DNA from: Cristatella mucedo
Taxonomy: Eukaryota; Bryozoa; Phylactolaemata; Cristatellidae
Length of the DNA: 64,000 nucleotides
NCBI GenBank assembly: GCA_009760855.2
Contig: WPIO01000031.1
Coordinates: 1,321,001 to 1,385,000 of the forward strand
Reading direction: 5' to 3'
Under the pieces are notes generated by a model. It made no database searches. It was not told the DNA's origin and saw nothing but the letters and a program-made list of their open reading frames with translations. The translations under genes were made by a program, and so were the position numbers. Positions 823-43,114 of the stretch are shown piece after piece. The number at the start of each line of letters is the position of its first letter. Within the stretch, counting starts at the first letter, position 1.

Positions 823-1023
823 TTGCAGCAGCACTTATTCCAGGGATACAAACTGCATTGCCGCCATCTGAGTCAACTGTTCAGGGAGGTGTCATAGATG
901 GGTCAAAGTTGGCGAGTGTGACTGGCACACGGTCCAACTTGTCGCAAAAAGATCGGACGGTCATTTCCGGACTTCCTAAAGACGGCAGGCGACAAGCGTC
1001 CTATGTGGAAAGAGTGCCTTCAG
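823..1023 (+). CDS. repeat exon 1 (67 codons, phase 1-1)
   Basis: Acceptor TGTCACTTTCAG ends at 822 and donor CAG|GTACGC follows 1023. The exon opens V-AAALIPG and closes ASYVERVPSG, matching the V-A-A opening and E-V-P-P-G close of later units. The central part is diverged: instead of SSWxDGP it has KDRTVISGLPKDGRR, which aligns with the DGPLIAGPLSGARR segment of the exon at 23212. Length 201 nt keeps the frame. It is the most upstream unit seen. Confidence 0.6.
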
Positions 1024-1934
1024 GTACGCAACAGCCATGCTAATCTCTTATGAGCCTGTCCCGTACTGTAAAACTATCCTAGGTATCTATCTGTCCGTCC
1101 ACCCATTTTACTTGTGGCTTCTTAAGCTAATGTGCGACTTAGTCGCTACGAGAGCCCATTCGTGCTGAGCTTTGCTTTGTGAACTGTTCGAGAATTCTGA
1201 AGCCTTTCTATCCAGCTGAACTGCTCGGCTAGTCATTTGTCGGCAAGTGCGACCAGTTTGCACCCATCAGCTCGTTGTTAGAGCTCTTTACTCACTAGTC
1301 GAATCGATCAGTGAGTTCAGGTCAGGGCGTTTTTTCCATCAGCGAGTCTCTCAAGCGTCGGGCTTCTTTTGACCAAGCTTACTTATTTCATGAGTGCAAG
1401 CCTCTTTGTCAAATCTCCTGGGATTATTACGCGGCCATTTGTATTCTGACTCGGGCATAGCTCAGATTGTGCGCAATCGCATCCTTATACGCATGCCCTA
1501 TTTTCACGACTCACGCTAGCTCGGAGTGATTTCTGTGTCAATTGTCCTTCGCACTACATTCAATTTTCTCCTGACTCTCCTGACTCTTTTGATCCCGACG
1601 CATCGATCGTTCCAGCCTGCCGTCCAGCACTGCTACTCCCATGCTGCTCACTTCCTCGATTGCCATCCTCACCCAGCTGTTCCCAGCACTAATCGTTTTT
1701 GTTAGATAAAGTCTGTTGGCCACTGCGAGAGCATGGAAAGCCATGCGGGCTTTCAGTCGTACTATGCATAACTCTCCTGCATAGCATGCATTTAGTCTTC
1801 GTGGCTTCGTTGATCTACAGATGGAGGGGTATATTTTCATACATTCTCAAATAACCTCTCACTTTCAAAATGGGCCCCTACGTTATCCGTCTTTTCTGGA
1901 GAAGCTGCCGCTTCTTAAATCCTATTGTTTTCAG
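1024..1934. other. intron, nothing recognised
   Basis: No retrotransposon, SINE or paralogous exon was recognised. A minus-strand ORF in 1538-1840 has no recognisable content and is treated as chance. Confidence 0.45.
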
Positions 1935-2144
1935 TTTCAGCATCACGTCTTAGAAGACCAGCTGAAGTCACGCCACAATATTCTCAGACAGCAGCGCTTG
2001 GTAAAGCGGCCCCTGTCCCTGAAGCACGATTCCTCCCAACAGCTCACAGACCGTCAGCGTCTTCGTTGAAATACGATCCTCAGACTGGCGATACTGTTGA
2101 ACGCGGCTCTCAGCCATCTGTTTTTATGCAAGAAATCCTTCCAG
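1935..2144 (+). CDS. repeat exon 2 (70 codons, phase 1-1)
   Basis: Acceptor TTGTTTTCAG|TT and donor CCAG|GTTCGT. It opens V-SASRLRRPAEV, close to the VAASRPKRHAEL of the exon at 19585. The core HRPSASSL fits the consensus R-P-S-A-S-S-W with W changed to L. It ends MQEILPG, the E-x-P-G close of the family. The frame is open throughout. Confidence 0.7.
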
Positions 2145-2204
2145 GTTCGTAAGTGGAGTAACAGAGTAAGATCAAAGGGCATGACATAATGATTATAATA
2201 ATAC

Positions 2205-2480
2205 TTTGGATTGCGCCCTCAGAGAACTTAATATTTTTCTTTGCATTTTACATATGCTATAATAGAAGCATGATCAAGAGGTTAGTGGAAGCATGCACAA
2301 TGTCAAGAAGCACAACATGGTAAGAGGTGAAATGCATAATTTCAACATGTAAATATAGTTAGTGGCAGCAGGCACAATGTCATCACGCATAAATAAGCAC
2401 ACAAAGTACGAATCACAAGAATCCATTAAATGCTGAGATAAACAGGTTCGTTATTATGTAGACCAATAATAGATGCATGG
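2205..2480 (-). mobile_element. LINE family A, 3' end fragment
   Basis: The segment starts with GCGCCCTCAGAGAACTTAAT, the reverse complement of the family A tail, and runs into the typical 3' untranslated part (repeated GTTAGTGGCAGCATGCACA-like stretches, then the CACTAAATGCTG end of the ORF). Confidence 0.7.
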
Positions 2481-2554
2481 GTAACCAATACTATAAGCTC
2501 ACTAGAGAACCTTTTTAAGTTGATATCAACGATCTAAAATCTCTCAAAAAAGGG

Positions 2555-2665
2555 AGGACTTGGACCATTGCCGTGCAACGCCTGTGATACACAGTCGAGG
2601 TCATAGGCGCTCAAAGAAGTACTCATGCGATCGATAGTATGAAACCCTGCCGAATATTTAGCAGA
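2555..2665 (-). mobile_element. LINE family A, decayed reverse transcriptase fragment
   Basis: The stretch with GGACCATTGCCGTGCA and GCGATCGATAGTATGAAA aligns by eye to the minus-strand reverse transcriptase region of the longer copies near 33410-33495 and 61925-62010. Very diverged. Confidence 0.5.
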
Positions 2666-2758
2666 GCTACCAGAGGGGCTCGACTTTGCACAGCTGTTGA
2701 CCTTTCTCGCCGAGCTGCCTGCAGCCAGCCGTACCAATTACCGAGGCTCCACCTCACC

Positions 2759-2874
2759 AGAGAGAGAGAGAGAGAGAGAGAGAGAGAGAGAGAGAGAGAG
2801 AGAGAGAGAGAGAGAGAGAGAGAGAGAGAGAGAGAGAGAGAGAGAGAGAGAGAGAGAGAGAGAGAGAGAGAGAG
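2759..2874 (+). repeat. (AG)n microsatellite, 116 nt
   Basis: A perfect AG dinucleotide run. The Arg-Glu and Leu-Ser ORFs over it are artefacts of the repeat. Confidence 0.98.
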
Positions 2875-3027
2875 CACAGTTACAGCCAGTTTGGGGGAGT
2901 GGTACGGCCAAGGCCAGGAATGGCTTCCTCTTTGAACAATGCAGATGGCGAAATAACTTGAATTGATATGCCTGGTGGGCCCGGATGCGCGACGGTGACA
3001 CGAACGGTCGCGGAACCTATATGGCTA

Positions 3028-41071: not shown

Positions 41072-41284
41072 TTGCAGGAACGCGACCTGCACAGCGAGCG
41101 GACGCTTTTGTGCATTCTTTCGGAGGGGTACAGCTTGGCGAAGCTTCTCTCATTCCTGCGGCACAATTCATCCAAGCGGCTCGCAGAGCGTCCACCTCGT
41201 CTTGGAGAGAGGCGCTTCACGTCGATGGCCCGACTATTCACGTCTCAAGGCGCCCTTCACTCGCGGAAGATGCGCCTCGTGGAG
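41072..41284 (+). CDS. repeat exon (71 codons, phase 1-1)
   Basis: Acceptor ACCACCCACAG|TT and donor GGAG|GTAAGC. It opens V-AGTRPAQRADAFVHSF, has LGEASLIPAAQFIQAARRAS, the core TSSWREALHVDGPTI and the close SLAEDAPRGG. Only 79 nt separate it from the next unit. Confidence 0.85.
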
Positions 41285-41363
41285 GTAAGCTATCGCGGCA
41301 CAGCGAGCGGAATCGAACGCTCGCGAGCTCCGACAGGCGTCGTGGATATTTCTTTTGGCGCAG

Positions 41364-41513
41364 CTCAGCCCTCGCTAGGTGTAGGTTTCATTTTGTCCTT
41401 GCACGTTATTGAAGCGGAACGAAGACAGTCGACGACCTTTCAGCGAGGCGGTTCGCTTATCGACCAGAATAGCTTGAGGCACAGCGCCTCGCTTTCGGCA
41501 GCATCGCCGATGG
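41364..41513 (+). CDS. shortened repeat exon (50 codons, phase 1-1)
   Basis: Acceptor CTTTTGGCGCAG|CT and donor ATGG|GTGAGC. It reads A-QPSLGVGFILSLHVIEAER, RQSTTFQRGGSLIDQ and HSASLSAASPMG, aligning with EVGFIPxxxxxEAVRRPSASSW and the close. It lacks the first 20 or so residues of a full unit. The core W and DGP are replaced by FQRGG. Confidence 0.65.
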
Positions 41514-41877
41514 GTGAGCGGCACTGCTGTGCCAACACGCTTTGCTGCTCTGCGCTAAGCTGTCGCTCTCGGCTACTCTGCGCTACGCTGTCGAACAGCC
41601 CAAACCTGGCTGAGTGGCTCCATCGTCTCTGCTTCAAGATTCGGGTTTAGAGCCTGTATATCTGTCATCGTCACTGACGGTTGTATGCCAGCAAGGTTTT
41701 ATGTGGTGGCTGCGTGGCATTTTCAAATGAATTACAGAGCCCGAGCGAGATTCAATAACTAAAATTGTTCATCTCACGCAGCCTAGAACGTAAGAAACGC
41801 GGCCAAGACTTACTGCCGGAGGACAGTCCCGAATAGAAGTGGCTGCCGTGCTCAACTGGCAAAGCCTGGTCCAAATC

Positions 41878-41921
41878 GAGAGAGAGAGAGAGAGGGAGAG
41901 AGGGGGGGAGAGAGAGAGAGC
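41878..41921 (+). repeat. (GA)n/(GGGA) short microsatellite
   Basis: GA repeats with GGGGGGAGAG interruption. Confidence 0.95.
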
Positions 41922-42316
41922 AAGAGGGAAAAAGAGCATAGCATCGCTGAGTAAGAATTGAGCTTAATTAAGCATCACAACCTACGACCTGTGCAAGGAA
42001 AGCATCTGTGGCCGAAATATCGAGAGCTATTGAAGAATGGCTTTCACGTACATACTAATACGTACTATTTTATCTTGGTATTATAGATCAGAATTTGGCA
42101 AGCCTTATACGCCGTATTCAGAGGTGCAATTGTTTGCCTGTACCCAACAAGTATTGGTAGCTAATGCAGAATTCTGAGGAAGGGGACACGTGCGGCTGAA
42201 CTTATGCTTAGATTCACAACTAGCCTGCTGCCATACCAAGTAATAGCAGCAGTGGCTTCAGAGGCTCTCTTAAAGTGGCATCATTTGACTGGTGCCGCTA
42301 AAACATTTTTTTGCAG

Positions 42317-42468
42317 TTGCCCTGGTGTATGTTACTTTTGGCTGCGGCGCCTGCGGGCCATCGGCACCATCCGCGAAGAAGCACACGAGCTGGCACACTG
42401 TGTCCATCGCTACTTTCTTCTCGTGCTGTTACCGCTTTTGCATTACCCGCAATACCTGGATGCAGAGG
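42317..42468 (+). pseudogene. possible decayed repeat exon
   Basis: Excellent acceptor CATTTTTTTGCAG|TT and V-ALVYVTFGCGACGPSA, then KKHTSWHTVSIATFF and NTWMQR, weakly resembling the V-A opening, TSSW core and GEMPP close. The best donor, CAGAGG|GTTCGT, breaks phase. Similarity is marginal. Confidence 0.25.
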
Positions 42469-42907
42469 GTTCGTTTAGAAAACGTTTCTACTGGGTCCGA
42501 TTCTCGTGGCTTTAAATTTATGAGCGCCTTGGGGGCAGTAATCGGAAAGACGGAAGACCAATGTGGGCCGAACAGCATCTCTGAGTTTTCCTTCGTGCCT
42601 TCTCTTCTATCTTTAGCTTTACTCCAGCTTCACTCGTTCGCACTGCAACATTGCTCCTGATATTCGAGCCGTCACTGGCTTCTTCTCGAGATTACTTTAT
42701 TGTGTTTCTTCAAGCATGCTTATTCGTGATTTTACGCTGTTACGAGCACTGCGATTGCGCCTTGGGGAATTTTAGTGCTGAAGCCACTGTGGCACGTTTG
42801 TAACACTACTTATCTCGAGGGGAAGGAAGTGTCCCGCCCATCTAGAATAATCTAGGGCTGATGCGACAGCCTAGCTCTGCTCACTGCTTTGCAATTTATT
42901 TTTGCAG

Positions 42908-43114
42908 CACTGCCGGTGGTGAGACAAGCCAAAGTGTTGGACCGTCCTTCTGTGTCAACACAGCTCGCCGAAGTGAGCCACATTTCAGACCCGAAAATTG
43001 CCCACTCTGTTCAAAGGGCGTCGACGGTGGAGTCGTGGAGTGTGGGCCCGCAGGTCACGACCCCTCTAATCTACGATGCACGTCAAGCTCTCTTTGAGAG
43101 AGAAGCGACGAAAG
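42908..43114 (+). CDS. repeat exon (69 codons, phase 1-1)
   Basis: Acceptor TTATTTTTGCAG|CA and donor AAAG|GTAAGC. It opens A-LPVVRQAKVLDRPS, has LAEVSHISDPKIAHSVQRAS, the core TVESWSVGPQVTTPLIYDAR and the close LFEREATKG. Last typical short unit before the long exons. Confidence 0.83.

Follow-up and report, generated by a model that had tools for sequence, protein, structure and literature searches.

Giant ankyrins occur across the bilaterians. Their long exons measure 8103 ± 4850 bp, some of them contain arrays of repeats, and the Drosophila protein carries 93 repeats of 76 residues, according to the available part of the source (PMC5135030). In titin, the exon arrays of the PEVK region change length by duplication and splicing, as described in the accessible sections of one study (PMC6469411). 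Tandem duplicated exons are also used as mutually exclusive alternatives, and the excerpted account of these places homologous exons side by side (PMC9741552). In this study, a stretch of 64,000 nucleotides from the bryozoan Cristatella mucedo (contig WPIO01000031.1, positions 1,321,001 to 1,385,000; hereafter the window) was analysed for an array of short repeated exons on the + strand. We consider it fairly probable that these exons belong to one giant animal gene of about 210 kb or more on this strand, whose disordered protein would have grown by in-frame exon duplication. All coordinates are those of the window, negative values lie upstream of it, and coordinate c corresponds to C244:1321000+c in an assembly of 572 Mb and 688 contigs. 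The flanks were read in 10 kb pieces, 170 kb upstream and 100 kb downstream.

An earlier note on the window listed 11 units of the repeat. These units and the exon at 823 were read in all frames together with their splice sites. The profile of the 11 listed units that the note had proposed was run on both strands of the window and returned 14 + strand units with E-values no higher than 1.6e-5, of which 11 had served for training and 3 were new. The best reversed-sequence match had an E of 0.16 and the best minus-strand match an E of 0.03. With a leave-one-out profile, 24 of 27 candidates (14 in the window and 10 upstream) were confident, with scores of 21 to 89 bits, although for the near-identical upstream copies this procedure is not independent. 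The best of 100 shuffles of any confident unit scored 11.7 bits. At least 15 exons had been announced for the window; 14 are certain, and the remainder comes down to one or two doubtful ones. The array had also been thought to begin at 823. It starts at -21.1 kb, and an iterative profile placed the ten further members at -21.1 to -19.7, -14.0 to -12.1 and -8.3 kb. A whole-genome search with one upstream unit also recovered eight of the ten. That search gave 9 matches and a search with one window unit gave 4, all in the array except one copy on contig C676; these searches score the best candidates only, and distant relatives could escape them. The C676 copy (around 4333-4764) covers 439 bp of one unit and its flanking intron, is 93% identical, contains a stop and is apparently a dead, transposed fragment. 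Two low-E minus-strand matches of the iterative profile, near 56.7 and 162.7 kb, were regarded as spurious, probably as artefacts of iteration, and do not belong to the curated leave-one-out set.

Each of the 24 confident units is readable as a stop-free exon that follows an AG acceptor, has a length divisible by 3 and is in phase 1 at both its ends, which agrees with the claim that nearly all of these exons are phase 1-1. The donor is GT in 21 units. In the other three a GC donor was inferred by similarity to other units, and GT donors further on exist for each of them. GC donors are enriched in alternatively spliced genes, as stated in the available part of a published study (PMC2490688). 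Three such donors among 24, if real, would be a hint of regulated splicing. The window units measure 61-76 codons, a wider range than the 67-76 codons first reported. Nine upstream units have 52-55 codons and lack the opening block, with the acceptor selected by phase and similarity, and the tenth, at -8.3 kb, is of full length.

The 14 confident units of the window are all + strand and phase 1-1. They lie at 1941-2144 (204 bp), 19585-19791 (207 bp), 23212-23424 (213 bp), 24467-24691 (225 bp), 26531-26734 (204 bp), 27327-27533 (207 bp), 28279-28485 (207 bp), 30002-30208 (207 bp), 31335-31517 (183 bp), 35416-35619 (204 bp), 36810-37037 (228 bp), 37513-37725 (213 bp), 41072-41284 (213 bp) and 42908-43114 (207 bp), the last of the array. 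The inferred GC donors are those at 27533, 31517 and 35619. For the unit at 27327 a GT donor of the same phase stands at 27548; the exon finder took a later donor ending in phase 0 for the unit at 31335 and a donor ending in phase 0 for that at 35416. The three weak candidates are also on the + strand. A marginal unit at 823-1023 (phase 1-1, 201 bp) scored 16.0 bits against a shuffle best of 10.8 and resembles the family in its later part only. A partial unit at 14381-14503 (phase 1-1, 123 bp) holds the closing block only, with 9.6 bits against a shuffle best of 6.2. Another marginal unit, at 41312-41512, scored 15.9 bits against 6.4. It is probably a decayed copy in the following intron, because it starts 28 bp past the preceding donor and in another frame.

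Growth by whole-exon duplication, as had been proposed, is well seen in the upstream part of the array. The copies at -13.1 and -12.7 kb share 99% identity over 180 bp of exon sequence, and with the copy at -13.5 kb they form a trio of exons that are 96-99% identical to each other. Eight short units, labelled b to i (-20.5 to -12.1 kb), give 22 diverged pairs. In these pairs the exon identity is 73-79%, compared with 37-64% in the 200 bp after the donor, and the flank before the exon is 39-77% alike. For 20 of these pairs, the ratio of nonsynonymous to synonymous substitution rates (dN/dS) falls within 0.27-0.58, in an analysis that did not include unit a. We read the pattern as weak purifying selection, as a disordered protein would show. 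The locus seems to show exon duplication in progress, with young, near-identical copies beside diverged and mostly still constrained ones. If so, the growth of a giant disordered protein would be measurable across individuals and related species.

The array appears to be part of a larger + strand region. Exons were predicted with generic splice matrices and with codon usage derived from this locus. From -150 to +65 kb, leaving aside the stretch of the giant open frames (-44 to -24 kb), 51 of 72 predictions on the + strand were phase 1-1, compared with 0 of 9 on the - strand. In the same run, none of the predictions at 65-164 kb downstream was phase 1-1 (0/9 on the + strand, 0/12 on the - strand). 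A second run from -147 to +65 kb gave phase 1-1 in 52 of 87 predictions on the + strand and 3 of 22 on the - strand, and beyond 65 kb downstream in 1 of 14 and 0 of 19, respectively. Five Markov sequences used as controls in this run gave 1 to 8 predictions, 0 to 4 of them phase 1-1. The + strand predictions, mostly phase 1-1, begin 147 kb before the window and continue to about 65 kb into it, a span of about 210 kb. The earlier view of a gene made of the unit array was right in that the array is real and too narrow in scope, the array being one of several exon families in these 210 kb.

The all-against-all comparison of the exons gave five groups, and the remaining exons match nothing. One group is the 24 units of the array. 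The others are seven exons, each encoding about 111 residues, at -129 to -105 kb (-129353 to -105213), two exons at -61 and -57 kb, three pieces of a giant exon, and two exons at 59.9 and 64.2 kb (59931-60277 and 64195-64509), near the presumed 3' end. The predicted giant exon lies at -38367 to -25835. It has 12.5 kb, or 4176 codons without a stop, and contains ten or eleven copies of an internal repeat of about 112 residues with the motif TYTGSDAS. The end of this exon is in phase 0, as is the start of the next predicted one; therefore, the two fit.

The repeat had been described as without a named domain, and nothing significant was found in Pfam, NCBIfam or PDB, so that it is unrecognised with respect to these curated libraries only. 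In 22 units, the best Pfam result was a match of one member to one family at E 0.088, and the best NCBIfam result was one match at E 0.025. The unit profile had no match in PDB up to E 1, and other tested stretches of the gene had no Pfam match above the cut-off. A literature search by concept, not by sequence, yielded no recognised description of the repeat, which does not rule out that one exists. AlphaFold2, run on the alignment of 22 unit sequences, returned no secondary structure, with a mean predicted local distance difference test score (pLDDT) of 65 and a predicted template modelling score (pTM) of 0.15. The unit is accordingly predicted to be intrinsically disordered. The pattern Arg-x(1-2)-Ser/Thr-x(0-1)-Ser/Thr occurs in 21 of the 24 units, compared with a mean of 6.8 and a maximum of 16 in 2000 shuffles. 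The widely kept basic Arg-x-(x)-Ser/Thr site with a second Ser/Thr suggests repeated kinase or 14-3-3-type sites. Cysteine makes up only 0.3% of the units, which argues against a secreted disulphide protein.

We believe that the unit exons, the other + strand exon families and the giant exon may be spliced into one transcript family. The protein would then tolerate the gain, loss or skipping of unit copies, because every unit would be removable in frame. The product would be an intracellular scaffold or spacer, long and intrinsically disordered, and the more units it included, the longer it would be and the more binding or phosphorylation sites it would carry. A stronger form of this proposal is that of a previously undescribed giant protein, consisting almost wholly of independent in-frame exon arrays (four unrelated-looking exon families and the giant exon with its 112-residue repeat) and acting as a tunable multivalent scaffold with its length and phosphosites set by cumulative exon inclusion. 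We put this form forward tentatively and hold it to be rather doubtful.

Several points weigh against these proposals. Splicing and the single transcript are inferred from genomic sequence, not from RNA, and the scaffold, the kinase sites and the intracellular location are deductions of ours. The arginine-serine pattern was picked after the units had been viewed. The exon model was trained on the region that it scored; the counts of 72 and 87 contain wrongly cut exons, and the 87 also include fragments of the giant exons. From -170 to -147 kb there is one weak prediction scoring above 17 (89 bp, phase 0-2), and the 5' end presumably lies beyond the stretch that was read. The boundaries of the nine short upstream units and the three GC donors were set by phase or similarity, so that the figure of 24 of 24 is partly one of choice, and in three short upstream units the exon scorer favoured starts in phase 0. 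The selection data are also uneven. In pairs g-i and h-i the upstream flank is conserved to the same degree as the exon (77% compared with 75-76%). In unit a (-20.9 kb), the ninth and most diverged short unit, the exon is no more alike than the downstream intron in 4 of 8 pairs. dN/dS is 0.80 in pair c-d and 0.92 in pair c-i. The six youngest pairs have few changes, and their values range from 0 to 2.0.

The evidence was also weighed for other explanations. The + strand region may be divided among at least two adjacent genes; one might, for example, end upstream of the short units and another begin near the window. This would fit the 12 kb gap between the exons at 1941 and 14381. It would also fit the profile comparison with hhalign, in which the 111-residue family, the giant-exon repeat and the unit showed no link to one another (probability about 0.1), a weak result with one of six rows of the upstream family misframed. 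However, phase 1-1 predictions prevail in each of four stretches from -150 to +65 kb, and no internal boundary (gene start, stop or poly(A)) came to light, though none was systematically sought. We regard a division into several genes as unlikely. The units may instead be a repeat that is dead or does not code for protein, for example a family of mobile elements in which open frames arose by chance, and the C676 copy with its stop shows that pieces can move. Besides that copy, however, the matches are confined to one strand of one locus, and all 24 units are open and bounded by splice sites. In the majority of the diverged pairs, the exons are better kept than the introns and dN/dS is below 1. 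A dead repeat is the least probable explanation considered here.

A muscle gene of the titin, obscurin or kettin type, with an expanded spring region and with its immunoglobulin (Ig) domains further upstream, would share with titin the exon arrays that change length by duplication and splicing. The exons of the titin I-band are of phase 1, and symmetric exons of TTN, the titin gene of vertebrates, are said to be the subject of published work. The array of in-frame removable exons is found here as well, all 24 units being readable as phase 1-1 with predicted boundaries. However, the search for the I-set domain gave 152 matches genome-wide (the best 150 of 683 candidates were scored), and none among the matches listed was on C244. 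Proline, glutamate, valine and lysine amount to 25% of the 24 units, compared with a ratio of 0.54, taken as the minimum for PEVK exons from the accessible part of the source (PMC6469411). A gene of the titin type is unsupported, and we consider it improbable. The array might also be the repetitive tail of a giant ankyrin, in which a long exon and repeats are joined to ankyrin repeats, a ZU5-ZU5-UPA module and a death domain. The predicted 12.5 kb exon does correspond to the long exon of several kb that marks these proteins. However, a ZU5 search of the genome (all 14 of 14 first-look candidates scored) gave six matches, none of them on the 4.56 Mb contig C244, although a ZU5 domain split between exons could escape it. 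For this reason a giant ankyrin is unlikely. The combined share of serine, glutamate, threonine, aspartate, lysine and proline is 45.3% in the giant exon and 39% in the predicted unit exons, whereas the long exons of ankyrins are reported to exceed 55% in the available part of the source (PMC5135030). Overall, we consider the ankyrin explanation highly improbable.

Further exons were predicted on the + strand of the window beyond the array. The exon at 46444-47229 (phase 1-1) lies outside the repeat family of the array and has no Pfam match. Those at 54796-55077 and 56486-56848 are phase 1-1, as is the exon at 62735-63040 near the presumed 3' end. The exon at 53918-54463 is also phase 1-1, with uncertain ends. 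Two were scored as phase 2-1: the exon at 52869-53785, whose start is uncertain, and that at 59931-60277, whose homologue at 64195-64509 lies just outside the window. Dispersed repeat families were observed at 32189-33460, 40331-40630, 60704-61973 and other places in the window. Some reading frames hold fragments of reverse transcriptase that by eye resemble long interspersed nuclear elements (LINEs). Beyond 65 kb downstream, a - strand reading frame near 105 kb contains a PA domain (E 5.9e-08); from its letters, we take this gene to encode a putative PA-RING protein. Elsewhere in the assembly, the densest I-set cluster among the matches listed is on contig C111 at 10.69-10.82 Mb, with an open frame of 2993 residues. 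The I-set matches of identical score that recur there at intervals of about 4.02 kb suggest that a titin-like gene has recently undergone internal tandem duplication. Mitochondrial COX1 was found on contig C688 (21 kb), with 44% GC in the 1.7 kb read. It reads with the invertebrate code (AGR for serine, AAA for lysine), as judged by eye against known COX1 sequences, and this is indicative of an animal of the protostome type.

The proposed giant gene can be compared with three known systems. Mutually exclusive tandem exons likewise have homologous exons adjacent to each other, as the excerpted account has it (PMC9741552). In contrast, the locus studied here has 24 confident copies, all of which could apparently be included together in frame. 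Giant ankyrins, such as Ank2-XL of Drosophila and unc-44 of C. elegans, share the very long exon with internal repeats and the idea of a disordered spacer, and on architecture they are the closest known system, as far as the available part of the source describes them (PMC5135030). Unlike them, this locus has no ZU5 match on its contig and a lower bias towards the six residues named above, and its main array is spread over many individual exons instead of a single one. If splicing of the units is cumulative, the exons would provide a natural dial of length and valence, apparently independent of titin and ankyrin. The PEVK region of titin, in the accessible part of its description, has a long run of short exons, a disordered product, growth and shrinkage by exon duplication and, as a feature of TTN, splice isoforms that differ in length (PMC6469411). 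The array resembles this region and differs from it in its unit of 61-76 codons in the window and 52-55 codons in the nine upstream copies, in its low share of PEVK residues and in the lack of I-set domains on the contig among the matches listed. If the previously undescribed scaffold is real, the principle of the titin PEVK region would have been invented a second time, in an unrelated protein outside the group of Ig-domain muscle proteins. In this study, we believe that the giant gene most likely works like the PEVK region of titin without belonging to the titin type.

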